Shown here piece by piece: positions 3,525 through 22,384 of a stretch of DNA of 36,334 bases. The first letter of the stretch is position 1. Each line of letters opens with the position of its first letter. The notes under the pieces are model-generated. The model saw only the letters and a list, made by a program, of their open reading frames with translations. It did not search any database and was not told the origin of the DNA. Source of the stretch: a virus; IMG/VR virus record IMGVR_UViG_3300046000_001764, positions 1 to 36,334 of that record; one strand, written 5' to 3'. The translations under genes and the position numbers were made by a program.

Positions 3525-3525
3525 A

Positions 3526-3687: not shown

Positions 3688-4426
3688 ATGGACGAAGTTC
3701 GTCTTCTTTACGGACAACCATGGCAACATGGAAGATACTACATGCACTGATGCACTGGTAGAGTTTATGGGCCGATTCCAGCCTGACATTAGAATCCATG
3801 GTGGCGATGGCTTTGATATTAAAGCCCTCCGAAAAGGAGCAGAAGGCAAAGATGTTAACGACTCCCTTGAAGAAGATATTCGCATGGGCATAGAGTTTAT
3901 CAAACGAACCAAACCCAATGTATATCTTTTTGGAAATCATGAAGACAGGCTCTTTAAAACTATGGAGTCTAGTGGTAGTGGCATCATCCGAGACTACTGT
4001 AAGGACATTATTGACTATATTGTATCGACTCTAAAGGAGAACGGATGCAAGACAATCAAGCCTTACCATGCGGAAGACGGCACATTCCGCATCGGACCTG
4101 TGGTATTCTGCCATGGCTACTCAGCCAACCAGAACAGCGTTAAGGAGCATGCTATCCACTACGCTCCTAGCGGTGGAGCCTGTGTCATCGGACACCTCCA
4201 TACCATCACTCAGGCCAATGCCAAGCGTCACAAGGGCGTGGTGGGCTTCTGTGCGGGATGGCTGGGCAAGCAACGCACCGCTGGCTATGCGAAGAATCAC
4301 CTAAATACCTCTACATGGGGCAACGGCTGGTGTTATGGCTGGGTTAAGGGCAAAGACTGGAAGATACTTCAGGCTCACAAAGTGGGAGGTCGATGGGTTA
4401 CCCCCATTGATTTCGACATTGACTGA
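3656..4426 (+). CDS. Calcineurin-like metallophosphoesterase
   Basis: 256 aa with the five expected metal-site motifs in order: D20-x-H22 (TDNHG), GD at 50-51, GNHED with N94 and H95, H153 in FCHG, and GHLH at 179-182. These bind the two metal ions of calcineurin-like phosphatases, nucleases and nucleotidases. The short Lys-rich N-terminus (SKRKKSPKSK) may contact nucleic acid. In the early arm, beside recombination genes, it could process DNA or RNA ends, degrade a host nucleotide signal or remove phosphates from a host target; the sequence does not decide which. Translation overlaps the preceding small gene by 32 nt. Confidence 0.85.
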   Translation: MSKRKKSPKSKWTKFVFFTDNHGNMEDTTCTDALVEFMGRFQPDIRIHGGDGFDIKALRKGAEGKDVNDSLEEDIRMGIEFIKRTKPNVYLFGNHEDRLFKTMESSGSGIIRDYCKDIIDYIVSTLKENGCKTIKPYHAEDGTFRIGPVVFCHGYSANQNSVKEHAIHYAPSGGACVIGHLHTITQANAKRHKGVVGFCAGWLGKQRTAGYAKNHLNTSTWGNGWCYGWVKGKDWKILQAHKVGGRWVTPIDFDID

Positions 4427-4893: not shown

Positions 4894-5566
4894 CCTGCTT
4901 TTCAACATGGAACAACCTCCACAGTCCAAAGCCGATGGCTGTTACAAATGCGGTGGCTACACTGACCTTGAACCAAAGGGACTCTACGACATTCTGTATG
5001 ACGAGTGGTGCGGCAATAATTATAACTCCTGTGGCGAGAACAAAAGCACCTTCCTTTACGCCTCGCCCTATCCACATCCCTGCGACTGCGAGGGCAACGC
5101 CAGCAAGGGTCAGGATGGAGCCTAGCCAAATACAAGCGTCCCTGATATCCTCGTAAGCCTCTGCCTTGGACAGAGCCTCGACCTGAGCATCGGCTACCGC
5201 CACGGCGGTCCATGCTAGGTTTAGTTCGGTCTCAAGTTCCTTAGTCTTCTCTGCTTCCTTATCTAACTTCTTGACATCCTTGATACTCGCCGCCCATTTG
5301 CTTATTTGTTCTTGGGAGGGCTTTTTAATAGAGTTGAGACGCTCGATACTAATTCCAATAACCCTGTCACTAGGCTCACCAGTCTTTCCAGCAATGGCAC
5401 TGAGGGCCGCTGACGCTTCTGACGCTTCCGTTTCGATGTTGTTAATGTACGCTTCCTTTTTTTCATTTATAGGTGCAACAGGAGGAAGCGGTTTGTATTG
5501 AGGGGGTGGGGTTGGAGCAGTAGAACAGCCAACAAGAAGCAGTGCCAGCAGGATTACTTTTTCCAT
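4781..5566 (-). CDS. Multi-membrane-span lipoprotein, spanin-like lysis protein
   Basis: 261 aa. The N-terminus is a lipoprotein signal with a lipobox ending LLLVGC (C14). A proline-rich stretch (TPPPQYKPLPPVAP) follows, as in Rz1-type spanins. Residues 85-140 are helical and charged, possibly coiled coil. Three hydrophobic segments follow at about 145-166, 172-193 and 201-218, then a soluble tail with two Cys. A lipid-anchored N-terminus plus C-terminal membrane segments recalls unimolecular spanins, which join inner and outer membranes for the last step of lysis, but those normally have one membrane span. The gene directly follows the holin-like gene (13-nt overlap) and is the last late gene. 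A spanin role is inferred from layout and context; another membrane function is possible. Confidence 0.6.
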   Translation of the reverse strand: MEKVILLALLLVGCSTAPTPPPQYKPLPPVAPINEKKEAYINNIETEASEASAALSAIAGKTGEPSDRVIGISIERLNSIKKPSQEQISKWAASIKDVKKLDKEAEKTKELETELNLAWTAVAVADAQVEALSKAEAYEDIRDACIWLGSILTLAGVALAVAGMWIGRGVKEGAFVLATGVIIIAAPLVIQNVVESLWFKVSVATAFVTAIGFGLWRLFHVEKQVRRYCQSSDSAVLDGEPCLDKQSGTSESEPAPSVKEV

Positions 5567-5865
5567 AGTTTGTTAATGATTTTGTAGAATGTCTTTTCAA
5601 ATATGTCTGGTGCAATAGCACCGCTGACAGAGAAAAGGATGGACTTATACAATGGGTCTATCTTGCTTCCATGCAAGGCAAAGTACATCAATACGCCTAC
5701 GATTCCGCCAGCCACTATCTTCTTGACCCAAACAACGATAGGCTGACGCTCGTCAGTCAATATCATTCTGGCTATCATACCCAAGGCTCCAAGCAAAGCG
5801 ACTAGCCAGCCGCCAGACTTAAAGTCAGCGGCGGCTTTGCCAAGGTCTGGGTCGATAGGACTCAT
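5554..5865 (-). CDS. Holin-like small membrane protein
   Basis: 103 aa with hydrophobic segments at about 18-36 (GGWLVALLGALGMIARMIL), 46-66 (a Gly/Val-rich span) and a weaker one at 74-86, plus a basic C-terminus (IINKLWKK). Size, membrane spans and the charged tail fit a phage holin, which opens the inner membrane to time lysis. The start overlaps the stop of the giant gene as ATGA (5862-5865), and the spanin-like gene starts inside its 3' end. Holin assignment rests on topology and on being beside a lipoprotein gene at the end of the late operon. Confidence 0.65.
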   Translation of the reverse strand: MSPIDPDLGKAAADFKSGGWLVALLGALGMIARMILTDERQPIVVWVKKIVAGGIVGVLMYFALHGSKIDPLYKSILFSVSGAIAPDIFEKTFYKIINKLWKK

Positions 5866-6970
5866 CTTTTGAAGTGAGCCCTGAAGATATCATCGCAAGC
5901 CTGTTGTTCGTTGTCCGTCACAGAAACCAGTGCCTTGTTAGCACCATAGACTCTGAAGCGAGAAGGACCAGTCTGTTGGATTGTGTAGCCAAGAGCATTG
6001 ACGAGTGTAACGCCAACACCCTCACCGCCGTTAGGAAGTTTAATCTTCGACATGTACTGGTTGAATCTGATTAGCGTATTCATAACCATCAACTGGTCGG
6101 AAGACGGAGTCCACATCGACTTTGTCGCTGTTTGCACAGGAGCAGAAGGAATGGAGTTAGGATAGCCAAGACCCATAGCAGGAGGTCTAGGAACGACACC
6201 GCCAGAAGCGTTATTCAAGCCAGCATTGCTAGGCATGACAACAACCTGAGCAACACCAGAGGGGTTCGGAGCCCCAGAAGTGTTGTTGACTGTAGCCACA
6301 TGAATTTCATTGGCTGTGGCAATCTGAGCCGCCATCACCTGATTGGCATGGAGGCAGTGCTGGATAATGTCTTCAATCTTAGCATCTCTACCAAGGGCAG
6401 AGACAGCCGCAGTAACAAGTTCTTTAGCGTAAGGTCTAGGAATCCTAAGTTTGCTCAGGCCGACAACACAAGCATTGAAGTTGGGGTGGGCTTCGGCAGG
6501 TGTCTTCGGGGAGGTAACAGGAGGAGTAGGCTGTTGAGCCTCAGCCTGAGCAACCTGCTTGGCAACCTGCTGAATCTGAGCGGGAGCCATGACAGGAGCA
6601 GTAGCCTGAAGTGCGGCGGATGTATCAATACCCTGCATTTCTGCGAGTCTACGCTGAAGAGTATCAAACTCTCTGATGCACAACTGTGCATGCTCAAGCG
6701 TAGGTACGATAGCAATCCTTCTCTGGTCGATAATCTGACCATGGTACGGACTCTGGTGAGGTTGCATGACAACTTCATACTTGCCAGCCTTGCCAGTAAC
6801 CATGTATCTCTTGTCAGCAGTGGCAATCCTAGGATTACCAGCACCTCCGCTCATCTTGAGCGTAAGGTGGTCCTTGATAGACAAGATTGCAAGGGTGTGT
6901 TCTAGGTTTTCTCTAGAGACAGAGGCAATCGGGCCAGCCGCTTGAACGACAACCTGAGCCACGCCAACCT
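5862..6970 (-). repeat. C-terminal duplicated module of the giant protein, with RuvA-C-like insert
   Basis: GVAQVVV occurs at about residues 4021 and 4260. Each copy is followed by a short helix and a strand-rich piece ending in a helix: one with RYMVTGKAGKYEVVM and EHAQLCIREFDTL, the other with SRFRVYGANKALVSV and EQQACDDIFRAHF. Between them, at about 4183-4226, NACVVGLSKLRIPRPYAKEL and IEDIIQHCL resemble the three-helix C-terminal domain of RuvA. The duplication is visible by eye; the RuvA likeness is weaker. Confidence 0.45.
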
Positions 6971-9900
6971 GTTCGACTGGCTTGACTGTGCCGTTCTTGA
7001 TTGTGGCCTCAATAATTTTCTTGACCTTTTCGGCAGTCGCCTCAGTCTTTTTGACTTCAACCTTGGTCGGCTTGACAGGCTTGGCCTTCGTGGGAGTTCC
7101 GACAGGGGGCTTCTCTCTTCTAGGTCTGCCAGCAGGTCTGCGAGGGCCGATAGGCTTGTCATACTGATTTCCACCAACAGGGGTGTACCCAAGTTCGATA
7201 GGTCTCTGGGGGCCAATCGGTTTATCATAGGCAGGAGGAGGGTTGTACTCCAACTTAAGTGTGGGAGGCTTCTCAGGGCCAATAGGTCGGTCATACTGGT
7301 ATGCCTGAGCCCCCATCGGGTCAGCCACAGGGGCATCATACCTAGAAAGAATGCTGTCAGTCGTTGCCTTCAGTTCCTCGGTAGTCATGTCAGGTCTAAA
7401 GTCCTGAGTAGGACCAATAGGACTTTCATACTGAAAAGGATTAGAGGTGTCTTTCTGGGGAACCTGATACTTATCAAGCAAGTCCTCAACCGACAGTTCA
7501 CGGCGAGGCGTATCAATCGTCTGGGGCTTGCCTTCCGCTGGCCTCTGGGGGCCAATCGGTTCATGATACATATCTCCAGACACAGGCATCTGTGTGTGGT
7601 TGAACGCCAAATTACGCTTAAGTGCTTCCTTGCTGAAAGGAACGGAAGGCTTCTTTACAGTCATATCACCCTTAAACTCCTTAGGGTATCTAATCATGTA
7701 GGTGTTGGCAGGAGTGCTGGCCTCAACCCAAGGCTCAAAGCCAAAGGATTCGTACCACTTCATCAACTTGGCTTGGTCCATCCTGCGACCACCTTCGGAA
7801 TAGAAGGGGGAAACTTCAAGAGAAACATTGACCTCGTTTTTGTCAGCGACAGACAGGATATGCTCCATGACCATTCTGCCACCACCCTTACCTTCAAAGC
7901 CGTAGATAGCATCAATATACAGGGAAGCACCATCTCCCTCGCCCTGAAGACTGACTTGGAACGCACCAGCCTTACGCTCTCCGTTCTCAATAACAGTTCT
8001 AATTCTTTCGTCAGGTCTTTCGGGGTGAACTTCACCAAGTTCAGCCAGCATAGAGATAGACTCCGTGACTCTTTCGCCAGACATAGGCATGACCTTAGGC
8101 TGGGCAGGAGTTTCAACAGGAGGAGTGTACTTAGCCTTTTCAGGCTTATTCTTCTTAGGCTGGGTAATGCCAAGAGCCTCATGCATTTCTGCTTCAGTTG
8201 TGGCCTTGTCTATTGCACCAATAAGTTTGGCAATAGGAGACGAGGGGGCAGGAGCATCTTCATTGACAGCCGCTTCAACGGCGTTAGTGCGAGCCTTGTC
8301 CTTGTCGCTGTAACTAGCCCTACGAGTTTCCTGATTTCTTTCCGCTAGGGTCTTCCAGTCCTTAAGAACCATGCCTCTTTCTTCCTGCATCTGTTCCGAC
8401 TCGTCAAGGATGTACTTGTTCATTTCATCGTTCATGTACTCAATGAACTCGTATCTGATTTCTCCAGCAACAGCCTTAGCCTGTCTCTTTAGTTCAGCAT
8501 CATCTCTTGGGGCTTCTCTTTCAAGGATAGGACCAAAGAAAGGTGCTTCCTTCTGGAAGTCCTTCCATGCTTCACCAGAGGCAAGTTGAGAGGGCTTATA
8601 TCCTCTTTCAATTTCAACAAGATGCTTGCCAGTAACTGGGTCTTTTTCGACATAACGATTTCGGGCTTTAACTTCATCGTTCTTTTCTTTAAGTTTTTTG
8701 TAGTAGCGATACTCAACACTGTCAGCCTGACCATATACATGGTGTCTGCCTGTTCCTTGGTCAAAGAAGTTACCGACAAAAGAAAGTTCTCCAGTACCTG
8801 CCTTGAAGGCTAGTTCGCTTCTGATTTTAGCCTCTGTCTTTTCCTTAAACGCTTTTCTCTGTTCGTCAGAAGGCACTACGCCATTCTTTTTCTTGAAGTC
8901 TTTCTTGTAATCCTTCCATCTGCTATCAAGTTTTCTTGCTACAGCCGCTTCGTCTATCTTGCCAGAGGTATCCTCTGTAAGAAGGTCTTTGTTTTCAGGG
9001 AACTTTCTGAGATAATCACCAAGCCATCCCAAAATAATAGGATTCTCCTGCATGATGCCAACGGATTCCATGTTAGCGTCAATGGTAACGCCCTTCTCCT
9101 TGGCGAGAGCGACTTTATGTTCAAAATCTATAGTACCCTTTGAGTTCTTTTCAATATACTCAGCACCTTCTCTAAGCGAACTCAGGATTTCAATGGTAGA
9201 CATGAACAGGTCAGGCTGATTCTGAAGTGCCTTTGTAAAACTAGCACTTCTGTCAAATCCAGAAATTAGAACTCCAGACTGTCTAAGCGTTTCTTCATAA
9301 ACTTGCTTTCCAGAAAGACCTTCAAGGCCGCTGGTGGAAGCACCAGCCTTAAAATTAGGGTCAGTCAGGTGAGGGTTAATTTCCCAGCCCCAAAGCGAGT
9401 ACAGACCAAAGACAGCCTGAAGGTGTTCAAACGGAGTGTTGAGTCTAGCACCTTCTCTAAGCCTTTGGAGTTTCTCATCCATTATTTTTATGACTTCGTT
9501 ATACTCATCAGGGAATACGCTTACGGCATTCTTTCTAATTTCGTCCATTACCTCAGGAGGAATATCCTTAATCTTGACCTTTTTGTCTGGGACACCAGCG
9601 TATTTAAGGACAATTTCGTTTTCACCAGACTTCTTGCTGTCATGGATAGACGGAATCACACCCTCAATAATCATAGTATTACCATCAAGAGTCAGTTGTC
9701 TAAGGATAGAGTCACCCTTGTCGTTAAACCACTGCGAGTTTGCGTACTTATAATCTGCTAGATACTGGAGGGAGCCAGACTTAAGGTTTGTACCAAAGTT
9801 TTGGTTTCTAGCCTTGGTAGCATCATAAGTTCCAGCCGCAACTTCCTTTTGAATGGCAACAAGAGCATCGTTGATTCTGATACGCTTCTGAAGTTCAGAG

Positions 9901-12900
9901 TCAAACTCTTCCTTGTCCCAGATTCGCATACCTTCCTTGTCGTAAGACTCTTCGTTCTCAGCCTTCATCAGAGTTTCAATCTGCTCAGGGCTCATCGGTT
10001 CATACTTAACAACATCCTCAGCCTTGACATTTCCTTCTTCATCAGCAAAGCCAAACACTTCAGCAGAGTTTCTTCTATGCTTTGCGGCTCTTCTCTCTGC
10101 AAGAGCAATGGCATCTTCTTTTGTGATAGCCTCGATTTCATTTGGGTCGTAGTCTTCTTCTTTAAGACCAAAGGCTTCTTCGATGTTAGCCTCCTTGGCT
10201 TCATGTTCTTCATATCGTCTGATGGTTTCAAGATGAACTTCATCATCAAACTCAGGGTGCGGGTAGCCTTCATCTTCAGCCGTAAGACCTTCGGCTTCAG
10301 CCGCTTCATTCTCCCTGTGGTACTCAGCCATAACCTTGTCCTTAATTTTTTCCATCTTGCGGGTACGCTCGTCCTTCTCTTTTCTAGCGGCCTCAAGTTT
10401 AGCCATGGTCTTGTCGTAGTTCTTGTCGATTGCCTTGAAGATACTATTGACCTTTTCTCCCCCAACAGAGCGGAGATATTGAATCGCCTTATCCATGTAT
10501 CTCTTTCTGTAGATTCTCCTAGTTCTTTCCCTTACTGTTTCGTTAGCGTAAACAGATGCTTCTAGCATTTTGTCACCTTCTGCTTCAAACTTTGCCTGTT
10601 CATCGGCAATCTGTCTAGCAAGTTCAATCGCCTTCATCTCGGCTTCCTTGTGGTGTTCCTGAGACCACTTGTTGAACTCCTTTTTAAAGTTAGGGTCAAT
10701 TCTAATAAGGTGTTCTTTCAGGTCTGCAAGATGTTCCTTTGTGAATTCCTCAATAGAGATTCTCTTAAGCCCATTAGCGGTGTCCCAAATGCTAACCTTG
10801 TCCCAAGTCATTACTGAATTGCCAAAGACCTTGTCCTTGTTCTTGGAGAAGAAGGTAGCAAGCACAGCATTACGAGGACGAGGCTCTTGTCCCATCTTAA
10901 TACGCTCGTCAGTCTTTCTTACGAACTCAGCGTACTCAAAGATAGTGTCTTTAAACGCAAGTTCCTTGACTGTGTCGCCACGCAACTTGTTAAACTTGAA
11001 TGGGTCAGGGCCAGACAGGTCAGTTTCCTGCAACATGTGACCCCTGTTTCTTGCCTCAGAGGCTCTGTCCTGAGCGAGAACAACAGCATCGTCATAAGAT
11101 TCTACAACAGGAATCCTGTCCTTGTTTCTTTCGTAAGACTTAGCCTTGCCTTCACCAACATATGCCATGAAGACAACATCAGGTCGTCCAGCGTTAAACT
11201 TAGAATACTGGGCATAGTCCCAACCATCAGGTCTATAATCATCAACAAATCTAATTCTAGCAACAGCCTCAAAGCCGAACTTGTCATACATGCTAGGAAG
11301 AACAGTGTCAAAAGCGTTAAGCCATCTAACCTTGCCAGTAGAAAGTGCCGCCTTAACGACAGCCTCCACATCCTTGGCAGTGCCATTGATACCCTTGACC
11401 ACTCCACCTAGTTCGCCAGACGGAGAGATGGAAGCCATCGCTCTCTTATCTCCAGCCATGAGAAGTCTATATCCAGCATACGCAGGACCGCTCTTGATTT
11501 CAACAGATGTACCAAATTTAGATGCAGACCTAGCCTCAATGCCAGCCGCAGAAAACTCATCGGCTTCAGGGCTCCACACAGAATGGGCCATGTCATCTGG
11601 ACCCTGATAAAGACCAAATGTCTTTTCGGATACCACATGTGTGCCGTAAGCCTGTTTTTCAATAGGCGTAAGTTCTTCGTCAAGTTTGCTTGTCCACTCA
11701 GGCATGAGACCAATCTTCTGGTCAGCAAACCTAATCTGACCAATGCCCTTCTGGATTTCCAAAGCCTCAGGGACTCGGCCTTCCTTCATTAGTTGCCTAA
11801 CCATGGAACGCTTTCTGTTGATTTCAACATTGGGCTCATGGATAAAATTGACCCAAGAGTTCTGGCCTCTAGTGCCAGCCGTCATGGCTCTTCTGGCCTG
11901 AGGGCTATACATTCTGGCGTGAACATCCCAAGCATTCTCTTCGCCAAGGGGGCCAAAGCCGTTACCTCTTTCGCTGTGACCAAAGAAGTCGTGAACAAAC
12001 CTGAACACATCATTGATACGCATCGGCATACCATTAGCGTCCTTAAACTTTGACATACCAAGGAGCGGGTTCTCTGTAACATCTCTAGGAGTAACCTTCT
12101 TTGCACCAAAGTTCAGGTCAGTAGAAAGAACCTTAAGCCTTTTGTTGTTTCTAACATCGGCAATAGCCTCGGCACTGCTACCATAAGGCTCAGTGTCCTT
12201 AATGTGCATCTCAGGGACATATCCAGCGTCAACAATGTGTTGCATCTGGACAAGTGTTTCATCGGCAAAAGCCTTATAAGCCGCTCTGACCTTAGGATTG
12301 TAAGGGTCATGCTTCATGCGTTCATACTCCATACCAACCTTGAACGACTTAGCGGGGTTAATCTTAACGACAAACTTTCCATCGCCAGTCTTGCCCATCG
12401 AAGCATCAATGCTTCTACGGATTCTGACAGTGTCAGGATTGTTAGCACCAAAGGAGCCAGCGGGAAGCATGTCGTCAGGCGGTTGCTGTAGCCATCTGCC
12501 ACCTTCTTCTCCATTGATGCCTCTTCTCTTAGCCTTGCCAGTAAGACTGGTATCAAGAACCGCAATGTGAGTGGCCTCATTGCCCTTAAGGGTCACATAA
12601 ATGTTGTCAACTTCAATGCCTCCGTCAAATGTATTCAGCAGGATAACGCTGTCGTGACCATCCTTAGCGGCCTGTAAAAGAATTGTATCGTACTTAACCT
12701 CTCTGTATTCAGAGCCCTTAAAGTCATAGACAAGAGGGTTTTTGAATCCGATAGCAGAGCGAAGTTGCTGAATCTCAAAGTCATTAGACGCAAACTTTCT
12801 AACACCAGCCATAGCCTTGTTGAAGGCATGCTGTGCGTCAGCCTGAAGGGGCTTAAGCACTTTAGAAACACCATCCTTATAAGCCTGAATAGTGGCTACG

Positions 12901-15900
12901 CTTTCCTTTTCGTGCAACTTTCTTTCAATAAGAGACTGCATCTCATTTCTCATTTCCTTGGTGGGAAGCCTAGAAATAAGTTCAGGAATCGCAGAAGCAT
13001 CCTGACCATGGAGTCTTCTCATTGCGTTAGTAAGTTCTCCAGTTGCAGACGGAATGCTGTATTTATACGGAGCCCCAGTCGTAGACAAAGAGTCCATCAT
13101 TGTGTCCTTGGGATACTTTTCGTCAATCGACTTAGCAAGACTCTTCCAGATATTGTTAACAGCCTCTACTCTTCTTTGGCTGGCTCTAAGTTCTGGCTCA
13201 ACCTGTCTCAAAAGCCTTTCGGCTTCATTAAGAAAACCTCTGTAAATAGCCTTATCTTCTCTTGAGTATGTATCCTTTGTAAAAAGAATGCCTTCTTCAA
13301 AATTGTATCTAAGGTTCTTGATGTAACTTTCAAAGTCTCCAAACCTAGGGTCTGCAATAGTATCAACAAGGTTTCTGAATGAGTTGTTAAGGGTGTCGAT
13401 TACTTCATGAATCTTACCTTCAACCTTGCCGTATGTATGAGATGTAGACTGTCTACCAGAGTGGAAGTGGCCCCTTTCGGCAGACTTAGCACCAGTGTTT
13501 CCTCCAAGATGTTCTCCTCTGAATTCACCAGTCTTGATTAGTTCAATGCTCTGTGTGCCATGTGTTCCAATTATAACAACAGGCTTACCTGTTTTAAAGT
13601 TAGCGTTATAAGTTTCCATGTCCCCCTTGGACTTAAGCCACTCTTCAAGAGAATGCCTAATCAGGGTCACATCTTGATTGCCGTTTCTAAACTGCTCAAG
13701 GAATCTCTGAAGTGCTATAGACTGGAATACATCGCCCTTTTCTTCAGCGTACTTAAAGTTGCTCTTAAGGAAGGCCGCTTCACCTTCGGACTTAGCACCA
13801 AATGTGTCAGCCATCTGATACATGATAGGCTTTGCCTTCTTGAACATCTTAAGTTTGCCAAGTTCCTTTACCAGTTTGCTAGGGTCGTCAAGACGCTTTG
13901 AAAGACTATCTACATTGAAATTCTCTCCATTGGTAGCGGTACTAAAGTCTCTAAGGTTTTCCGTCTTAACAGGAATAGCACCATCGCCAATGCTTTCAGT
14001 CTGGTAGAAGGCAGAAGGAATGATAGGAGAACTGACACGAACACCATCATGGTCTTCGCTAAGTTCAATCTCATTGTCAAGTCTTCTAACGACTTCTGCC
14101 TGTGTGGCTACATCAATTTTCGTTTCCCAGTCTGGACCCATGATGTAAGAGTTGCCAGCACCAGCAACAGTATCACGCATCTTCATAGGCCAACCCTTGG
14201 AATTAATAATCTCTCCTTCAAAAGCCTTAAAGTCTAAGGCTCTAACTCGCTCAAGAAACTCAGAATATCCAACATTGCCCCATCCTCTATTACGCTTCCA
14301 AGCGGCTGTGCTTACGGCAACATCTGCAATTGCCTTGCCCTGTCCTCTGCTTTTTATTTCTGAAACGACATGTACGATTTCGTCCCCAAGTTTTCCGTTT
14401 TTGAGTTTTTCAATAATTGATAGCGAGGCAAACTTTGGTCCAACCTTAAATTCAACAACCTTGTCCTTAAGCGTCTCAATCTGACCAGCAGGAGTGTCTT
14501 TGCCGACCCATGTCTGATTCTCTTCGGCAAGTCTTCCAATGAAGCCAGACTTCCACTTCTCAGAGTTCATGTCATATCTGCGACCAAGAACTTGAGGGGT
14601 CATCTTAACTCCATTGACAATGTCGCCTTCCTGATACATGGCTGGCTTGCCAGTGCTATCACGCCACATCGGACCAGTGTCGCTAATAGGCGTAGGCTTC
14701 ATACTTCTGTAGTACTGAGTTTCGTTGACACGAATTCTCATACGCTCGCCGTCAACAGACTTAGCACCAGTAAGGCCATCAAGGCGTAGTCTATGCCAAG
14801 GGTGGTTCTGGGTCGCAGTCTTATCGTAATTCTGGTAGGAGTGCCATTCCGCTTCAGCAACGCTGAACATAGCCCTATGGGCAAGGTTAGGAGCCGCACC
14901 GATAGCCGCAGTAACATACTTACGCTTCAGTCTTGCGTTGGCATTGTCACCAAAGAACTCAGTGGCAGGAATCTCCTTGTAGGCACTGTACTCGTCAATG
15001 GTTCTGAACACATCCTCTTCAAACTGGTGAACATCTCCGTAGAGGGACTGGAGTTCAGGGTTCTCGTTCCAAAGTATATGGTTTCGTCTGTTGAGGGCAT
15101 CAACATCCATAACCCTAGCGTTGTAGGCAAAGTGAGGATTCTCGTAATTAACTGTAGGGTTCTTGATATTATCAAGAGTCCAAGAAAGTTCTAGGTCGTA
15201 AGGAACAAAGTTAACATTTCTGGCATTGAAACTGTCGCCAGACTTGCGGCTTTTCTTAACGCCGTTCTTGTCCACTTGGTCAAATCCATGGTAACTGCCA
15301 GAGACTACATTAGCCTTGGAGAAGCCACCATCAACAATAAGAGGAGCAAGCATTCTTACATTATCTGCAACACCCTTAGGGATATACTTTTCAATTATCT
15401 TAAAAAGAGCATCGCTCGGAATGCCACGCATTATAAGTTTCCTACCTGTCTTCATCGCTTCAACAAGGTCAATAGCCATCTTGCCTGTTAGGGCTGTTCT
15501 AGGTCTTCCTCTGGCTCCATAAGAGGAGGAGGTTCTGGGAGGATATACTCCGCTTGCATCAGCACCAGTCTTTTGGGCGGCATGAAGGTCATCAAGGCTG
15601 GGACCAACATCACCAAAGTCTGTGCTTTGGTAAAGCATTGCACCATCTCTGGAGCCTAGCGTATCAGATGTAGAGCCATTAGGGTCTCTGCTTGCGGCAT
15701 CAAGGGTTGCAAAGTTTGATTCAATTGTACCAAAATCGGCTTTTCCGTCTGTAACAACCTGAAGGTCTACGCCGTTAAGTAGTTCTGGGTTCTTAAGGAA
15801 GGCTTGTCCCAACTCCATACCCAAAGCCTTACCCTTATTGTGCTGTTCGGCATTGTACTGCTCATTGCTCTTAAGAGACGGAACTCCATCCTTGTCGTAC

Positions 15901-18900
15901 TTGAGCCTGTCTTCGTAGCCATATGTTTCGGCATGTTGCTTCAACTGTCCAGCAGTAAACTTATGAAGGTCAGTTCTACCTAGGCCAGCGTCCTTCATTT
16001 CGTGAGCGGTGTAAGACCTAGCAAGGTCTCTAAACGCATTCTCGATAATCGGGTCAAACTTGAAGTTCTTATCGTCCTTAGTCTTCTTGAACCAGTCAAG
16101 GAAAGCCTTGCTCGTTCTAACATCAGCACCAAGGTTAGTGGCTTCTCGGAGAACTCTGTTCTGGAAAACATCCTTAACGGACTCAACCATGTTTCTAGCA
16201 AAGCCTAGGTCTCCACCCTTAAGGATATAGTCAAATGGCTTACCGCTTTCCCAGCCGATAAACATAGCCTCGCCAAGTTCCTCGATAAAATCATGGAAAG
16301 CCTCTGCGACTTCAGGAGTTTCAATCTTACCTGTTCTTTCAAATTCGTCAATGGCCTTTCTCCAGTTGCCGTCATAGGCCGCATCTCTGCCTTCTCCACC
16401 AAGTTTTCTGTAGGCTTCATGCATGAACTTAACAGTTCCAGCCCTATCTTTGAACGCAATACCCTGCTTACCACCAGAACCGATAAGCCAATCCTTAACA
16501 GTATTAACAATGTCAGCACCATGGTTCACTCTTCTGTAGGCCGCATTCATGGCATGGTACAGTTCTCCAAGCGGAGCAGTCTGAGCCTGAACGAGTCTAG
16601 GTCTCTGTCTTTCAACGGCTGGCATCGGACCCTGAACTTCTGCCTGACTCCATCTGGTCTCCTTGACTGCTGGCATAGGGCCAACAAAGTCTTTCTTAGC
16701 AACCTTTACTACAGTTCTTTCCTTCTTGGACTTAAGAGGAATACCATACTCGTCAATGCCAGCAGGAAGTGTTTCAGTAACATCTACTCTCGGACCTTCA
16801 ACCTCAACAGTTTCAGGAGTTCTAACTGTGTCAGTCGGCCTCGGACCTTCTGCCTGATACTTGTCGTAAATTATATTGCCAAACTTGTCTCTAGCGGCAG
16901 TGACATTGTCGGTATTAATGATGATGTGCCATCTTCTGGTCTCGCCGTCCTGCCAGATAGCAATAGGCTTCTGATTGGGCTTACCATCTTCACCCTTGCC
17001 CATAAATATACCATTCCAAGACTGAGACGGAAGAATGCTCTTCTCTGCTGGCATCGGTCCGATGAATCCATCAGGCTTAATCTTTTCAACAGAGGATTCA
17101 AAAGAGCCGTATCTTTCCAAAGCACCATGAATAGTCTGACCAAGGTCAGAAAGAACTTTAGTGGGCTTGCCGTCAGGACCAATAACTTCCTTCCACATCT
17201 TAGCATCATTGGAAAGAGCCGCCGCAAAGTCTCCATAGCCCATGTAGGATACGGACACATTCTTGCTCTTCTCAAGCGTCATCACATGAGCGATGGCTCT
17301 TGTTGCTTCCTCAGAACCATGGTCCTGAGCGATTCTGGAAATGAACTGCTGGACTCTGTCGTGCTTAAGCAAGTGACCCTTTTCTCTCAACTGTCCAACA
17401 TGGTTGTCAAATTCTTTATACAGTGCTTCCTTGGCGAAGTTGCCACTGAGAGTACCATAGGCATATCCAACATTGTGACCCAAGGCTCCAAGAGCCATGC
17501 CAGTACCAATGCCACCAGCCGCACCTTCTTCGCCACCAGCAATACCACCGATGACACCGCCGTAGAAGCCGCCATGAATGGCAGTAGTTCCAAGGTCTTT
17601 CATGTAGATGGCAAGAGGAGAGGAGAACTTCATTGCCTTGGCAATGGCTGTGTCACTCTTCTCTAGACCCTTACGACCAATATCAAGGATAGTTTCACCA
17701 ATCAATCCTACGCCCTTTAGGCCAGCGTAGACAGATGTAATCGGAAGTGCATACGGAATATTAAAGACGGAGTACATACCCACAGCACCCATTGCAGAGT
17801 GAACAAGAGAGGTGGGAGCCTTAGTGCCAGCATGACCAGCGGCAACCCTAGACGCTCTGCCCTGTCCGTTAGGCGTAATATGAACCTTAGTGCCAAGAAC
17901 CTTAGAAGCATTGTCAGCAATGGTATCAAACATCGCATCAATAGGCTTAGTGGTAGACTCACTAAACTTAACAAGATTTTCACCAAGAGAGTTCATCCAA
18001 CTTGCCTTAAAGGCATTTCGTGCGGCTCTTGCAGAAACGGCATGACCAACAATATTGCCAGCCTCGCCAGACTTAATAGCGGCGGCGGCAACCTTTCCAG
18101 CAACACTCTTTGCCGCACCCGATGTACCCATCGAGAGATAAAGCGTGGGGTCTAGGAAGTAGGAAGCGGCTGTAGCGAGTTCCTTGTTAACACCAATAAA
18201 GTCATCAACCTGATTGCCGAATGTCTTACCAAATAGTTTTTCGTATGTTTCACGCTCAGGCATGAACACATTAGCCTTACCAGCAAGAATCTTTTCAGAC
18301 TGATTATTCCATTTAGCGAGGTCCAAGAAGTCTTCGTACTTCTTATCCATGTCATTCGTAGGATTTACGAACATGCGATAAATAGGACTTCCTGGATGGT
18401 TAGCCGCCATTACAGCAAGACCACCAAGGTCTCTTGTACCTCTAGCAAAGCCTTCAACGGCTGTAGCACCGAACGCTACACCAAAGCCAATAGCAGGTGT
18501 GGCAACAGCAGAAAGACCTGCGGCAAGACCAAGTTTCTTCCAGTCAGTAGCACCAGCAAGAACGCCTTTACCAAGGTCTTTGCCAGCCTGAAGGGCTCCC
18601 TCGCCAATAGCACCCCAGAAATTGAAATGCTGTTTCTCACGCCAAGGGTCATAAGCCTCAAACTCGGCTTTAGAAAAGTTCTCTGGAGTAAGTTCAATTC
18701 CCTGAGCCTGAAGGTCTGCCAGTTTCATGGCAACTTCTTCACCGCTGAGAGGAGCATTGATTGCTTCCATTAACTGTTCATCAGTCAAAGAGGTAATGCT
18801 CTTTGCCTTCATGGACACTGGACCCTTTACATCAGCAACATTAGCATACTGAGACCATGCACGATTGTCTCCTCCGCCATTAGCAATGTCAGCATAAGAC

Positions 18901-19031
18901 GAGTTCCCACCCTGATTAGGGGTAGGCTCAATACCTTGAGGCATCTGGGCAGGAGCCGCAGGATGTGCCTGTTTGTTAAGGAAGACCTTAGAAGACTGAA
19001 ATAGAGGGTCTGTGTTATTACTCGGAGGCAT
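5862..19031 (-). CDS. Giant polyvalent protein (4,389 aa), probable ejected virion protein
   Basis: The ATG at 19031 is preferred over the TTG at 19034. Regions in order: Asn/Pro/Gly-rich start; hydrophobic Gly/Ala segments at about 140-220 and 394-534, perhaps membrane-inserting; GPMPA repeats near 657, 780 and 797; an ADP-ribosyltransferase-like region at about 1819-2165 (GTHGTQS, GNTGAKSAERGHF, NPLVYDFKG, DGHDSVILLN); a domain at about 2224-2396 with HDFFGH (2347-2352) and RGQNSWVNF; a GNAT-like region at about 2477-2624 (LPSMYDKFGFEAV, PDVVFM); a highly charged helical stretch at about 2777-3077; a second GNAT-like region at about 3654-3784 (GKGGGRMVMEHIL, KWYESFGF); five PIGP repeats at about 3820-3965; a duplicated C-terminal module. 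Such large polyvalent proteins are known from phages and are thought to enter cells with the DNA. Placement after two ejection-type genes fits that. No RNA polymerase motif was recognised. Domain calls are by eye. Confidence 0.85.
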   Translation of the reverse strand: MPPSNNTDPLFQSSKVFLNKQAHPAAPAQMPQGIEPTPNQGGNSSYADIANGGGDNRAWSQYANVADVKGPVSMKAKSITSLTDEQLMEAINAPLSGEEVAMKLADLQAQGIELTPENFSKAEFEAYDPWREKQHFNFWGAIGEGALQAGKDLGKGVLAGATDWKKLGLAAGLSAVATPAIGFGVAFGATAVEGFARGTRDLGGLAVMAANHPGSPIYRMFVNPTNDMDKKYEDFLDLAKWNNQSEKILAGKANVFMPERETYEKLFGKTFGNQVDDFIGVNKELATAASYFLDPTLYLSMGTSGAAKSVAGKVAAAAIKSGEAGNIVGHAVSARAARNAFKASWMNSLGENLVKFSESTTKPIDAMFDTIADNASKVLGTKVHITPNGQGRASRVAAGHAGTKAPTSLVHSAMGAVGMYSVFNIPYALPITSVYAGLKGVGLIGETILDIGRKGLEKSDTAIAKAMKFSSPLAIYMKDLGTTAIHGGFYGGVIGGIAGGEEGAAGGIGTGMALGALGHNVGYAYGTLSGNFAKEALYKEFDNHVGQLREKGHLLKHDRVQQFISRIAQDHGSEEATRAIAHVMTLEKSKNVSVSYMGYGDFAAALSNDAKMWKEVIGPDGKPTKVLSDLGQTIHGALERYGSFESSVEKIKPDGFIGPMPAEKSILPSQSWNGIFMGKGEDGKPNQKPIAIWQDGETRRWHIIINTDNVTAARDKFGNIIYDKYQAEGPRPTDTVRTPETVEVEGPRVDVTETLPAGIDEYGIPLKSKKERTVVKVAKKDFVGPMPAVKETRWSQAEVQGPMPAVERQRPRLVQAQTAPLGELYHAMNAAYRRVNHGADIVNTVKDWLIGSGGKQGIAFKDRAGTVKFMHEAYRKLGGEGRDAAYDGNWRKAIDEFERTGKIETPEVAEAFHDFIEELGEAMFIGWESGKPFDYILKGGDLGFARNMVESVKDVFQNRVLREATNLGADVRTSKAFLDWFKKTKDDKNFKFDPIIENAFRDLARSYTAHEMKDAGLGRTDLHKFTAGQLKQHAETYGYEDRLKYDKDGVPSLKSNEQYNAEQHNKGKALGMELGQAFLKNPELLNGVDLQVVTDGKADFGTIESNFATLDAASRDPNGSTSDTLGSRDGAMLYQSTDFGDVGPSLDDLHAAQKTGADASGVYPPRTSSSYGARGRPRTALTGKMAIDLVEAMKTGRKLIMRGIPSDALFKIIEKYIPKGVADNVRMLAPLIVDGGFSKANVVSGSYHGFDQVDKNGVKKSRKSGDSFNARNVNFVPYDLELSWTLDNIKNPTVNYENPHFAYNARVMDVDALNRRNHILWNENPELQSLYGDVHQFEEDVFRTIDEYSAYKEIPATEFFGDNANARLKRKYVTAAIGAAPNLAHRAMFSVAEAEWHSYQNYDKTATQNHPWHRLRLDGLTGAKSVDGERMRIRVNETQYYRSMKPTPISDTGPMWRDSTGKPAMYQEGDIVNGVKMTPQVLGRRYDMNSEKWKSGFIGRLAEENQTWVGKDTPAGQIETLKDKVVEFKVGPKFASLSIIEKLKNGKLGDEIVHVVSEIKSRGQGKAIADVAVSTAAWKRNRGWGNVGYSEFLERVRALDFKAFEGEIINSKGWPMKMRDTVAGAGNSYIMGPDWETKIDVATQAEVVRRLDNEIELSEDHDGVRVSSPIIPSAFYQTESIGDGAIPVKTENLRDFSTATNGENFNVDSLSKRLDDPSKLVKELGKLKMFKKAKPIMYQMADTFGAKSEGEAAFLKSNFKYAEEKGDVFQSIALQRFLEQFRNGNQDVTLIRHSLEEWLKSKGDMETYNANFKTGKPVVIIGTHGTQSIELIKTGEFRGEHLGGNTGAKSAERGHFHSGRQSTSHTYGKVEGKIHEVIDTLNNSFRNLVDTIADPRFGDFESYIKNLRYNFEEGILFTKDTYSREDKAIYRGFLNEAERLLRQVEPELRASQRRVEAVNNIWKSLAKSIDEKYPKDTMMDSLSTTGAPYKYSIPSATGELTNAMRRLHGQDASAIPELISRLPTKEMRNEMQSLIERKLHEKESVATIQAYKDGVSKVLKPLQADAQHAFNKAMAGVRKFASNDFEIQQLRSAIGFKNPLVYDFKGSEYREVKYDTILLQAAKDGHDSVILLNTFDGGIEVDNIYVTLKGNEATHIAVLDTSLTGKAKRRGINGEEGGRWLQQPPDDMLPAGSFGANNPDTVRIRRSIDASMGKTGDGKFVVKINPAKSFKVGMEYERMKHDPYNPKVRAAYKAFADETLVQMQHIVDAGYVPEMHIKDTEPYGSSAEAIADVRNNKRLKVLSTDLNFGAKKVTPRDVTENPLLGMSKFKDANGMPMRINDVFRFVHDFFGHSERGNGFGPLGEENAWDVHARMYSPQARRAMTAGTRGQNSWVNFIHEPNVEINRKRSMVRQLMKEGRVPEALEIQKGIGQIRFADQKIGLMPEWTSKLDEELTPIEKQAYGTHVVSEKTFGLYQGPDDMAHSVWSPEADEFSAAGIEARSASKFGTSVEIKSGPAYAGYRLLMAGDKRAMASISPSGELGGVVKGINGTAKDVEAVVKAALSTGKVRWLNAFDTVLPSMYDKFGFEAVARIRFVDDYRPDGWDYAQYSKFNAGRPDVVFMAYVGEGKAKSYERNKDRIPVVESYDDAVVLAQDRASEARNRGHMLQETDLSGPDPFKFNKLRGDTVKELAFKDTIFEYAEFVRKTDERIKMGQEPRPRNAVLATFFSKNKDKVFGNSVMTWDKVSIWDTANGLKRISIEEFTKEHLADLKEHLIRIDPNFKKEFNKWSQEHHKEAEMKAIELARQIADEQAKFEAEGDKMLEASVYANETVRERTRRIYRKRYMDKAIQYLRSVGGEKVNSIFKAIDKNYDKTMAKLEAARKEKDERTRKMEKIKDKVMAEYHRENEAAEAEGLTAEDEGYPHPEFDDEVHLETIRRYEEHEAKEANIEEAFGLKEEDYDPNEIEAITKEDAIALAERRAAKHRRNSAEVFGFADEEGNVKAEDVVKYEPMSPEQIETLMKAENEESYDKEGMRIWDKEEFDSELQKRIRINDALVAIQKEVAAGTYDATKARNQNFGTNLKSGSLQYLADYKYANSQWFNDKGDSILRQLTLDGNTMIIEGVIPSIHDSKKSGENEIVLKYAGVPDKKVKIKDIPPEVMDEIRKNAVSVFPDEYNEVIKIMDEKLQRLREGARLNTPFEHLQAVFGLYSLWGWEINPHLTDPNFKAGASTSGLEGLSGKQVYEETLRQSGVLISGFDRSASFTKALQNQPDLFMSTIEILSSLREGAEYIEKNSKGTIDFEHKVALAKEKGVTIDANMESVGIMQENPIILGWLGDYLRKFPENKDLLTEDTSGKIDEAAVARKLDSRWKDYKKDFKKKNGVVPSDEQRKAFKEKTEAKIRSELAFKAGTGELSFVGNFFDQGTGRHHVYGQADSVEYRYYKKLKEKNDEVKARNRYVEKDPVTGKHLVEIERGYKPSQLASGEAWKDFQKEAPFFGPILEREAPRDDAELKRQAKAVAGEIRYEFIEYMNDEMNKYILDESEQMQEERGMVLKDWKTLAERNQETRRASYSDKDKARTNAVEAAVNEDAPAPSSPIAKLIGAIDKATTEAEMHEALGITQPKKNKPEKAKYTPPVETPAQPKVMPMSGERVTESISMLAELGEVHPERPDERIRTVIENGERKAGAFQVSLQGEGDGASLYIDAIYGFEGKGGGRMVMEHILSVADKNEVNVSLEVSPFYSEGGRRMDQAKLMKWYESFGFEPWVEASTPANTYMIRYPKEFKGDMTVKKPSVPFSKEALKRNLAFNHTQMPVSGDMYHEPIGPQRPAEGKPQTIDTPRRELSVEDLLDKYQVPQKDTSNPFQYESPIGPTQDFRPDMTTEELKATTDSILSRYDAPVADPMGAQAYQYDRPIGPEKPPTLKLEYNPPPAYDKPIGPQRPIELGYTPVGGNQYDKPIGPRRPAGRPRREKPPVGTPTKAKPVKPTKVEVKKTEATAEKVKKIIEATIKNGTVKPVEQVGVAQVVVQAAGPIASVSRENLEHTLAILSIKDHLTLKMSGGAGNPRIATADKRYMVTGKAGKYEVVMQPHQSPYHGQIIDQRRIAIVPTLEHAQLCIREFDTLQRRLAEMQGIDTSAALQATAPVMAPAQIQQVAKQVAQAEAQQPTPPVTSPKTPAEAHPNFNACVVGLSKLRIPRPYAKELVTAAVSALGRDAKIEDIIQHCLHANQVMAAQIATANEIHVATVNNTSGAPNPSGVAQVVVMPSNAGLNNASGGVVPRPPAMGLGYPNSIPSAPVQTATKSMWTPSSDQLMVMNTLIRFNQYMSKIKLPNGGEGVGVTLVNALGYTIQQTGPSRFRVYGANKALVSVTDNEQQACDDIFRAHFKR
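7135..7570 (-). repeat. Five-fold Y-x-x-P-I-G-P motif in the giant protein
   Basis: Copies in protein order: YHEPIGPQRP, YESPIGPTQD, YDRPIGPEKP, YDKPIGPQRP and YDKPIGPRRP, spaced about 20-50 residues apart in Pro-rich linker sequence. A sixth copy, YSQPIGPSMP, lies near residue 329 of the 359-aa protein (21370-21398). At DNA level the core reads GGGCCAAT(A/C)GG on the + strand in most copies. Confidence 0.8.
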
Positions 19032-21300
19032 CAAAGTTCAGGGATTGTTTTGCGTATTCAAGAGCCTGTGCGGGGTCGTTAAATCTAGCCATGCCAGCCG
19101 CATACTTGATGCGGAACTGACTTACTTGGCTAGACATACTGCCATTAGAGCCACTCTTTTCAAAAGCAAAACCATAAACCTGACCGCTGTCAACCATTGA
19201 TTGTTCAAGCCTCTTTCTGTATTCCTTAAGGGAAGCCACAGCCTGAGACGAGAAAATAGTATTGTGAGCCGAAGAAGGGTCACGGATAATCTTATCAAGA
19301 TTGACTTGGTCCTGATTAGACCATGCACCAGAGCCACCAACCTCGGTTCTGTTAGCGGCCTGAACAGTATTGTTGAGTGCCTGTGCAATACCAGAGACCT
19401 CAGTAGGGAGCAACTTGCTGAACATTGACTTGTTCTCGGCAATGTCAATCAGGGAGTCTAGGGCAGACAAGGCTCTGGTCGTCTTAAACACGCCGTCCTT
19501 AACCTTGTTGGCTTGGTCAATGTCACCGACACGAACCTCACCATTGAAGGTATATCCGTTAACTGTAAGGCCATTAAGGTTTCTAGCCTTAGAGAACTCT
19601 CCAGCCTTCCACATCTTTTCGCTGTCCGTAACGCTCAACTGGGAGGATTCCATGGACTTGTCTGCGAGGAAGTGAGTCTTGCCGTCAGGGCCAGTAGCCG
19701 CTACATAGCCAAAGCCAGCAGGAACAACCATAGGACGCTGGATACCCTTAGAGGCATAGAAAGCCTCTTTGGTAAATGTAGCAGGGACTCCACCAGTAGC
19801 CTGAAAGTAATTAGTCATGATAGCAAACTCATCATTAGTCTGCTCGTCAAGAGTACGCTGATACTTTTCCTGAACAACGCCCTCAACATCTTGCCAAGTA
19901 GCCCTTGATGCTTCAATGGAACCGCCACCATAAGGAGTATTAACCTTCTGAATACCCTTCATGAGACCAATGCGTGTCTTGGCTTCTACATCGTCAATCT
20001 TTTTGTTTAGCGTAGTTTTTTCTGCTTCAAGTTTTCTTATTTCAAGATTATCTCTAGCAATAGATGCCGCATTAGCCTTGGCATCTCCTCTTGGAATTTT
20101 AGGATTAAACCCTAAAGTAGAACCAGTACCACCATAAAACTGCTGAGGGCTTTCAGAGCCATTATTAATTGCAATCCTGTCTTTAAGGTTTTTTATCTTT
20201 AAATCAGCCGCATCAACTTGAAGTTGGATTTTCTGTGCCTCAGGATTGTTCCACTCAATTCTTGTGTCTGGAGCATTCGTTTTAGGGAAAACGCCAAGTG
20301 CGTCTCCAACTCTTCTGTTTCCTACAACCTTAAGACCTGTCTTTGCCTCAGCCTGAGCAACTTCAAGAGCAAGTTTAGCCTGTTCGTTTTCTTCAGTTCC
20401 TTTCTTTGCTTCAATATACTTCTTAAGTTCTGTATTAGAGAATGTCTTAAGTAGGTCAGCAGGAAGCGTAGGCGTAGGGGCCGCTTCTCCTGCCTTAAGT
20501 TCAGTAACGCCAGCGGCCTGTCTAGCAGACATGTATGGCTTAAACTTTTCGTTCTTTTTCTTAGTCCAAGAGCCGCCACCTTCTTCAATAAATTCATCGT
20601 CAACCTCTTCCTGACCAACGCTCGTTTTAGAGTGAAGAAGTCTTCCGATATTGTCTTCAGCGTCTGCAATCTTTGTCTTGTCACCGCTATCTTGAGCCTC
20701 TTTGAGAGCCTCAAGAAGAGGAGTCATTTCTTCTCCTGAGTAATTAACAGTTTCGCCAGCAACCTTAATTTGCTTGATTACCTTCTTAACATCCTTTGTG
20801 CCTTCCTTCTTGATTGCTTCAATCTTAGCCTTAAGTTCAGGATTGTTCTGGGCTTCACGGATTCTTTCCGCATCCTTCTGAGCCCTAAGGGCTGTCTGAA
20901 GTTGCAGTTCGGTAATGTCGTTGGCAAGTTGTGTGCTACGCAGTTTCTGCTTCTGTGCTTCAACGCCAAAGCCAGTTTCGTAAGCCTTAAGGCCAGCCGC
21001 CATCTGTGTTCTAGAAAGGTTAGCAACGCCACCTTCCTTGTTCACGGCATTAAACAAGTCATGAACATACTTAGGAGCAGAGGCATCGGGCTTGCCGTTC
21101 TCGTCAACCTTATAGTTAGAAAGGACAGAGCCGACTTGGCCCTGAAGCGTGGTCATCTCTTCCTTAGCACCATTGTATTTAGCAACGGCATCAAGCATCG
21201 ACTGGTGGGTCTTGTTCTGTTCGTTCAGAACATCCTTCATGTTAGCACCGACATTAAAGTCGCCGCCCATTCCACCTTGATATTGTCCAAAGATAGGCAT
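19018..21300 (-). CDS. Probable ejection (internal virion) protein, 760 aa
   Basis: The ATG at 21300 is preferred: it follows the previous stop by four bases (TAATTTTATG). An upstream TTG at 21327 would overlap the preceding gene. The protein is mostly helical and hydrophilic, with long Gln/Lys/Glu-rich stretches (residues about 110-180 and 300-460) that may form coiled coils, and a C-terminal helical region. There are no membrane spans or enzyme motifs. It lies between a Gly/Ala-rich protein and the giant protein, the place of the second of three ejection proteins in phages such as P22 and T7. These leave the capsid with the DNA and help form a channel across the envelope. Its end overlaps the giant gene's start by 14 nt. 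The role comes from context, not from a recognised family. Confidence 0.6.
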   Translation of the reverse strand: MPIFGQYQGGMGGDFNVGANMKDVLNEQNKTHQSMLDAVAKYNGAKEEMTTLQGQVGSVLSNYKVDENGKPDASAPKYVHDLFNAVNKEGGVANLSRTQMAAGLKAYETGFGVEAQKQKLRSTQLANDITELQLQTALRAQKDAERIREAQNNPELKAKIEAIKKEGTKDVKKVIKQIKVAGETVNYSGEEMTPLLEALKEAQDSGDKTKIADAEDNIGRLLHSKTSVGQEEVDDEFIEEGGGSWTKKKNEKFKPYMSARQAAGVTELKAGEAAPTPTLPADLLKTFSNTELKKYIEAKKGTEENEQAKLALEVAQAEAKTGLKVVGNRRVGDALGVFPKTNAPDTRIEWNNPEAQKIQLQVDAADLKIKNLKDRIAINNGSESPQQFYGGTGSTLGFNPKIPRGDAKANAASIARDNLEIRKLEAEKTTLNKKIDDVEAKTRIGLMKGIQKVNTPYGGGSIEASRATWQDVEGVVQEKYQRTLDEQTNDEFAIMTNYFQATGGVPATFTKEAFYASKGIQRPMVVPAGFGYVAATGPDGKTHFLADKSMESSQLSVTDSEKMWKAGEFSKARNLNGLTVNGYTFNGEVRVGDIDQANKVKDGVFKTTRALSALDSLIDIAENKSMFSKLLPTEVSGIAQALNNTVQAANRTEVGGSGAWSNQDQVNLDKIIRDPSSAHNTIFSSQAVASLKEYRKRLEQSMVDSGQVYGFAFEKSGSNGSMSSQVSQFRIKYAAGMARFNDPAQALEYAKQSLNFDASE

Positions 21301-21304
21301 AAAA

Positions 21305-22384
21305 TTATCTTCTGTATCCGTTGTCAATCATGCTAAACGAACCAGTATTAAAAGAATAAGGATTGGATGGCATGCTTGGGCCAATAGGTTGAGAATATTG
21401 ATTAGGATTAGCAACAATCGGAGGCGTTCCTCCGAACTTAAACATGTCAGGATTCTGTGCGGCAAAGGAGCCAAACGACCCCATGGAACTGAGCAACTGC
21501 TGTTGCTGTTGCATGCCAGCCTTAGCAATACCCATACCATGCTGGTACTGCATGCCCTGAGCCTGTGTACCCATCTGGGATTCAGGCTGGAATATCTGAG
21601 GCTGGTACTGACCAAGCATCGTATTAGCCTGACCCATGAACTGACCGCCAGCACCATACTGACCCATAGCACCGCCAGCCATCTGTAGGGCGGCAGACTG
21701 TAGGGCAGAGTCCTGACTCATCATCGTACTAGCAAACTGTCTTCGCTGGGCCTGTCTATTAAGACCCATACCATAGTTAGAAAGAACACCAGCGGCAACG
21801 CCCTGTCTTCCGCTCATGCCACGCATAGCCATAGCCTGATTGGCTGTCTGGAATGCTTGTCTCTGGTCTTGAGCGTTAAGGCTTGTTCCAAGACCAAGTT
21901 CACTCTGGGCTTCAGACATGAGGGTGTTGTGCATCTGGGCTTGACCCTGCGACTGCAAAAGACCTCTAGCCTGACCTGTAAGACCTCCAAGTGTGTTCAT
22001 GTAGCCAGCACCAGCCTGACCCTGAACGCCCTGAAGGGCTGTGTTGGCATTGTTAAGCATCCCTATGTATCCTTCATTACCTTCTCCGCCGTAAAGTTGA
22101 TTGTTAAGGGTGAGTTCCTGAAGACCCTGATACTTAGGTCTAAACTTGGTTTCAAGACCAAGAAGTTTATCCTGAATGCCAGCCTGAGCATCAAGGTTAG
22201 CATTCATCATCTGGCTGTAAGTCGGAGGCTTAGGAACCTTGGTCTTCTTAGAGCCAAACAAGCCTCCAATAACAGCACCGATGCCCATGCCTATGGGACC
22301 GAAAGCGGCCCCAGCCTGAGCCCCAGAAAGGGCTCCAGATGCGGCTCCAGAAGCCCCGCCACCTACAGAATCATAGTCAGACAT
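21305..22384 (-). CDS. Probable ejection protein, Gly/Ala/Gln-rich, 359 aa
   Basis: Residues 9-44 are Gly/Ala-rich with a glycine-zipper-like stretch (GAAFGPIGMGIGAVIGGLFG), a type of segment that can insert into membranes. The rest is Gln-, Ala-, Met- and Gly-rich and helical, with a five-Gln run near residue 295. Near residue 329 it carries YSQPIGP, the motif repeated five times in the giant protein, suggesting that both bind one partner or are processed by one protease. Position, composition and the membrane-like N-terminus resemble small ejection/DNA-transfer proteins of podoviruses. It is joined to both neighbours by the same TAATTTTATG junction. Confidence 0.6.
   Translation of the reverse strand: MSDYDSVGGGASGAASGALSGAQAGAAFGPIGMGIGAVIGGLFGSKKTKVPKPPTYSQMMNANLDAQAGIQDKLLGLETKFRPKYQGLQELTLNNQLYGGEGNEGYIGMLNNANTALQGVQGQAGAGYMNTLGGLTGQARGLLQSQGQAQMHNTLMSEAQSELGLGTSLNAQDQRQAFQTANQAMAMRGMSGRQGVAAGVLSNYGMGLNRQAQRRQFASTMMSQDSALQSAALQMAGGAMGQYGAGGQFMGQANTMLGQYQPQIFQPESQMGTQAQGMQYQHGMGIAKAGMQQQQQLLSSMGSFGSFAAQNPDMFKFGGTPPIVANPNQYSQPIGPSMPSNPYSFNTGSFSMIDNGYRR

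Follow-up and report, generated by a model that had tools for sequence, protein, structure and literature searches.

A 13.2-kb phage gene encodes a probable polyvalent ejection protein that carries an unnamed HDxxGH domain

The window analysed here is a 36,334-nucleotide stretch of viral DNA at its full length (IMG/VR virus record IMGVR_UViG_3300046000_001764, positions 1 to 36,334), in which a single minus-strand gene, from an ATG at 19031 to a stop that ends at 5862, occupies 13,170 nucleotides, or 36.2%. Its 4,389-residue product, referred to below as the giant, is probably a polyvalent ejection protein of a short-tailed (podovirus-like) phage, and most likely it is packaged in the phage head and injected. 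By sequence, an ADP-ribosyltransferase (ART) domain of the ART-PolyVal type, at least one GNAT domain and a phage-wide domain with the motif HDxxGH lie between conserved N- and C-terminal parts, and some of these slots are swapped among relatives. The ejection reading draws on the order and overlaps of the gene cassette, a like layout around 60 giants, the layout known from T7, DEV and N4, the ART and the second GNAT (GNAT2), the polyvalent domains of related giants, a fusion of a relative of the first GNAT-like domain (GNAT1) to a capsid protein, and the 'structural protein' label of gp205 of phage E3. The giant is a further member of the known polyvalent class and no new system; the novelty lies in the HDxxGH domain, not in the architecture.

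The initial annotation, which gave no strand, had described one gene filling 36% of the window, and the open reading frame is indeed intact; in 60 shuffles of its 13.2 kb the longest stop-free stretch was 198 codons. The source record is classed as 'linear'; the share of 36% is exact for the window only and would be about 34% if the genome matched its relatives of about 39 kb (related contigs of 38.8-39.0 kb). An independent IMG/VR contig, L004, holds the gene intact and at full length with 81% identity, L099 holds a relative at 60%, and L002 and L003 hold two halves of it at about 90%. L005 is identical over the last 1,596 residues, and L006, whose contig ends at residue 2,182, is 64% identical over the best-aligned 1,500 residues. 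The giant gene is under purifying selection, which bears out the strong selection first supposed: against clade relatives, the ratio of nonsynonymous to synonymous substitution rates (dN/dS) is 0.12-0.21 for the whole gene, about 0.06-0.15 for the first 600 residues, 0.05-0.11 for the HDxxGH domain and 0.06-0.24 for the C-terminal part. The second half of the ART domain gives 0.03-0.04 and its first half 0.18 against L099, with several ART values saturated. Searches of 50,697 phage records by tblastn with residues 1-1000 and 1000-2000 gave no match.

Direct Pfam, NCBIfam and PHROG scans were run on the whole giant and on ten slices, and phrog_3170 and phrog_2563 were the only confident matches. 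Slice-wise profile searches, which the initial annotation had advised, yielded these two families directly and the ART and GNAT domains through hhalign, with no confident direct Pfam domain. The ART-like region that it had named is supported as a predicted ADP-ribosyltransferase domain: the clade alignment matched the ART-PolyVal domain (PF18760) of L206, itself a PF18760 match at E 8e-12, at 95% in hhalign, compared with at most 0.5% for unrelated slices. A helical insert stands at the same place in both and diverges fast within the clade. The link to PF18760 is indirect, and no curated polyvalent model (LPD, ART-PolyVal) matched the giant directly in Pfam.

Two acetyltransferase-like regions had also been claimed; one predicted GNAT (GNAT2) is supported, a second GNAT-like domain (GNAT1) is likely, and a third region at residues 1525-1660 is possible. 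GNAT2 matched a 124-aa GNAT of Pseudomonas phage HRDY3 at 93%, the HRDY3 protein itself matching GNATs at 85%, and in the relative L003 it gave a weak direct Pfam match (E 0.0077). GNAT1 matched a Streptomyces phage protein deposited as an acetyltransferase at 98.7% and generic GNATs at 15-21% (controls at most 1.3%), and in phage UtzChips a relative of it is fused to a VG15 minor capsid protein. Searches of PDB profiles with the GNAT1, GNAT0 and ART alignments returned no usable relative, one of them retrieving mainly TAL-effector repeat proteins. Structure prediction by slices, likewise advised at the outset, succeeded for the HDxxGH domain (mean predicted local distance difference test, pLDDT, 91.6; predicted template modelling score 0.89) and failed for residues 1512-2185, where the AlphaFold2 model (pLDDT 45) was too poor to decide on the third GNAT-like region.

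What had been listed as an unnamed conserved domain is confirmed and delimited to residues ~2190-2470, a slice that matches phrog_3170 at E 1e-15. The 900 residues around it are matched by 226 phage records, and the domain occurs in at least 588 confirmed IMG/VR viral stretches; in most of the best 80 of these the protein that carries it is 1,400-4,100 aa long, the others being shorter or cut by contig ends. Several of 13 HDxxGH giants that were checked carry LPD38, LPD37, ART-PolyVal, InPase or SLT, predicted domains that are a signature of polyvalent proteins, and gp205 of Rhodococcus phage E3, which carries the HDxxGH domain, is deposited as a 'structural protein'. Phage proteins in BFVD match the predicted structure, down to E 6e-23, and a fold search of the PDB gave a best Foldseek E of 0.37 and no chain at Z 2 or more. 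No Pfam model, the LPDs included, describes the domain, and the literature search found nothing on phrog_3170. The invariant residues of the family follow the pattern HDxxGH..GE..H..TE..Q, with the T less strict; the Glu of 'TETRGQ' is kept in 79 of the best 80 phage copies from IMG/VR; the window clade has Gly in its place, and L099 has Ser. The motif resembles an iron site known from aromatic amino acid hydroxylases (PF00351), and most family members have a Glu about 35-40 residues later, but the profile match to those enzymes reached only 37% (at most 2.8% for column-shuffled controls), the PDB search returned no such fold and the Glu is absent in the clade; the assignment is not supported. 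COQ4, with its HDxxHx11E motif, was rejected, with no PF05019 match and 2.9% in hhalign against one COQ4-family sequence.

The genes around the giant place it among late virion genes, as is typical of phage polyvalent proteins. Upstream on the same strand lie terminase large subunit, portal, scaffold-like, major capsid protein (phrog_1328, E 1e-39), tail and fibre genes; the opposite strand encodes a DnaC-like helicase loader, an Erf-like annealing protein and exonuclease VIII. Between the tail genes and the lysis genes, proteins of 359, 769 and 4,389 aa are encoded in this order in overlapping reading frames, so that a small, a medium and a giant gene form an operon in the late region, as in the three-protein podovirus ejectosome; a holin-like and then a spanin-like gene follow. 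In all 60 of the HDxxGH-carrying giants examined an open reading frame lies close upstream (median 586 aa, usually at most 25 nt away), and in most of them this is preceded by another of 170-410 aa. The 359-aa protein has a weak Gly-zipper match (E 0.0067).

The class of phage polyvalent proteins was described in 2017 by Iyer et al. (PMC5512222). With its members the giant shares several unrelated enzymatic domains in one chain, here ART, GNAT2 and HDxxGH with disparate predicted activities, as well as the pairing of ART with GNAT, a location among virion genes and relatives with LPD, ART-PolyVal or InPase; it differs in its 4,389 aa, in a domain that lacks a Pfam model and in that no zincin peptidase was found. 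The arrangement matches that of T7 gp14-gp15-gp16, which DEV gp73-gp72-gp71 repeats with a 3,398-aa polymerase as its third member (PMC10925440), and that of N4 gp52-gp51-gp50, whose giant third member is injected (PMC12633501). Like these third members, the giant is third and largest in its cassette, and like N4 gp50 and DEV gp71 it combines several domains in one giant chain, but no RNA polymerase domain was recognised in it by Pfam or PHROGs, and its partners are not homologous to theirs by the searches made. GenBank relatives of the giant are 2,772-4,012 aa long, one of them labelled 'large polyvalent protein'. Microcystis phage Mel-JY33 (4,012 aa), Podoviridae ctQRb9 (3,209 aa) and Planktothrix phage Pag-Yong1 (2,772 aa) have giants with the HDxxGH domain, and Limnohabitans phage DC33 (3,125 aa) has one with GNAT1; in Mel-JY33, ctQRb9 and DC33 the gene also stands in the same place after the tail genes, but beyond those single domains none of the four shows detectable similarity to the window giant. 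Long stretches are 46-66% identical between the giants of ctQRb9 and DC33, whose middles differ, a slot swap. The DC33 record (PQ492659.1), deposited with Inoviridae taxonomy, is probably mislabelled, since it has a length of 39 kb and genes of the tailed-phage type. With such giants common and their class known since 2017, the initial view of the gene as the best candidate for a new system was overstated.

For the probable ejection protein a mechanism can be proposed, in which the 359- and 769-aa proteins would supply the outer-membrane and periplasmic sections of a channel for the DNA, through which the giant chain would thread, and in the first minutes of infection the ART and GNAT domains would modify host proteins and the HDxxGH domain a small-molecule or protein substrate. 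Several findings weigh against this reading. Neither smaller protein has a significant Pfam or PHROG match or detectable homology to known ejection proteins, and hhalign gives at most 2% against the proteins encoded next to other giants, so that the cassette match rests on arrangement; of the three-part ejection-type cassette first proposed, gene order and overlaps stand and homology of the two smaller proteins does not. No processing peptidase domain, zincin included, was found in the giant, two of the three GNAT assignments are weak, and the TE Glu is lost in the window clade. With this Glu replaced, the window's copy of the HDxxGH domain may be altered or inactive, though conserved.

An unlikely alternative is a large structural or core head protein, or a tape-measure-like protein, whose enzyme-like domains are inactive remnants. 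Late-gene position would fit it, as would the charged helical middle, the long unassigned stretches and the missing Glu, but constraint is among the strongest in the ART, the HDxxGH domain and the N- and C-terminal parts (most comparisons give a dN/dS of 0.03-0.15), relatives exchange domain slots in the manner of effector proteins, and a podovirus-like phage needs no tape measure. That the giant is a late protein made and acting in the infected cell without being packaged is improbable: the holin-like and spanin-like genes directly downstream speak for it, but the reading frames overlap with two genes in tail/ejection position, and the UtzChips fusion joins one of the giant's domains to a capsid protein. 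A chance or artefactual reading frame or an assembly chimera, for which no point was found, is refuted by the independent intact copies and by purifying selection.

Outside the named domains (Table 1), the membrane-like N-terminal segments first supposed are weak, with a single hydrophobic window and a Gly/Ala-rich stretch at residues 300-540. The long charged helical stretch is present as described, with K/R/D/E at 27-45% per 150-residue block over residues ~2700-3600. The motif [IVEQ]GPx(1,2)P occurs 8 times compared with 0.4 expected from shuffles, in two groups that flank the effector part, a descriptive figure because the pattern was written after the sequence had been seen; one more GPxP-type motif lies near the end of the 359-aa protein (residue 334, about 21360-21385). 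These repeats are a possible docking or processing motif. Relatives of residues 830-1530 were found only inside the clade, by tblastn of phage records and profile scans. In L099 (residues about 3498-3877 of its giant) and L006 (residues about 1983-2100) effector slots are swapped and the rest of the giant is conserved.

Table 1. Features of the giant gene and its neighbours in the window
Feature	Residues	Position	Strand	Remarks
Giant polyvalent/ejection-type protein gene		5862..19031	-	4,389 aa, intact open reading frame
N-terminal conserved part	1-600	17232..19031	-	Gly/Ala-rich, one hydrophobic window at 167-193
IGPMP-type repeats, N-terminal set	657-805	16617..17063	-	motif count
Conserved region	830-1530	14442..16544	-	clade conservation
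Possible GNAT-like region, RNRGWG motif	1525-1660	14052..14459	-	hhalign 24% to GNATs, controls at most 1.3%
ADP-ribosyltransferase domain, ART-PolyVal type, variable helical insert (predicted)	1808-2165	12537..13610	-	hhalign
HDxxGH domain, phrog_3170	2190-2470	11622..12464	-	HDxxGH at 2347-2352; conserved Glu replaced by Gly at 2386
GNAT-like domain 1, phrog_2563 (likely)	2490-2660	11052..11564	-	PHROG match, profile comparison
Charged, helix-prone region	2701-3600	8232..10931	-	composition
GNAT domain 2 (predicted)	3650-3790	7662..8084	-	hhalign; slot in L099 holds unrelated sequence
PIGPxRP-type repeats, C-terminal set	3826-3966	7134..7556	-	motif count
C-terminal conserved part	4050-4389	5865..6884	-	conservation, dN/dS
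359-aa Gly/Ala/Gln-rich protein gene		21305..22384	-	first of cassette; overlaps 769-aa gene by 23 nt; candidate pore-type ejection protein by position (T7 gp14 / DEV gp73)
769-aa protein gene		19018..21327	-	overlaps start of giant by 14 nt; candidate periplasmic-tunnel-type ejection protein by position (T7 gp15 / DEV gp72); clade-conserved
Holin-like gene		5554..5865	-	immediately downstream of giant

Stand-alone homologues of the HDxxGH domain, of ~235-310 aa and chromosomal, were found by a genome scan in Nocardia, Micromonospora, Streptomyces, Saccharothrix, Paraburkholderia, Chryseobacterium, Aquimarina, Enterovibrio and others, and the phage and bacterial sets match at 100% in profile comparison. 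By our own count, an S-adenosylhomocysteine hydrolase (SAHH) or SAHH-like gene, a homocysteine S-methyltransferase gene, or both lie within 8 kb in ~30 of ~44 bacterial loci, which are not 30 independent events since related genera share neighbourhoods; such a neighbour occurs at none of the phage-type loci. In one layout an SAHH-like gene, the HDxxGH gene and a DUF3293 gene follow one another, DUF3293 weakly matching the S-adenosylmethionine (SAM) lyase family. This operon is conserved in Bacteroidetes and some other bacteria (L126, L129-L132, L134-L137, L145, L148 and L156), with the HDxxGH gene near 7,800-8,700 in most. In the other layout the HDxxGH gene stands with a SufS-type cysteine desulfurase, a methyltransferase, a cystathionine gamma-synthase/lyase-type enzyme, a homocysteine methyltransferase and often SAHH. 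At L159, L162, L164, L166 and L170, where not every gene is found everywhere, an MFS transporter is added, the methyltransferase is UbiE/ArsM-like and the cystathionine-type enzyme is of the PLP (pyridoxal phosphate) kind; the cluster has the look of an unnamed pathway for biosynthesis or recycling, and nothing on it was found in the literature. An ART-PolyVal scan of 299 genomes of the phylum of G010, the genome of L164, gave no match and is uninformative, the controls being silent too.

The association with these neighbours suggests, as a testable hypothesis only, a substrate from the cycle of SAM, S-adenosylhomocysteine and homocysteine. A more far-reaching and doubtful proposal is that the HDxxGH domain represents a family of enzymes yet to be characterised, whose fold the PDB still lacks and whose substrate would be SAM, S-adenosylhomocysteine, homocysteine or a related compound. 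Bacteria would use it in operons with SAHH or SAHH-like, homocysteine methyltransferase, cysteine desulfurase and DUF3293/SAM-lyase-like genes, and phages in their hundreds would have incorporated it into giant injected proteins that upset the methyl or sulfur metabolism of the host on entry, for instance as a counter to methylation-dependent defence.

In conclusion, the giant is a very large, well-conserved addition to a known class, and an illustration of the share of its coding space that a small phage will devote to one probably injected protein. Its HDxxGH domain, annotated only as an unnamed PHROG, often marks giant phage proteins, and no solved structure is related to its predicted fold. 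The bacterial stand-alone copies offer a way to its function: a small homologue of 235-310 aa, once purified, could be assayed directly, and an 'unknown' part that hundreds of giant phage proteins carry would become testable.

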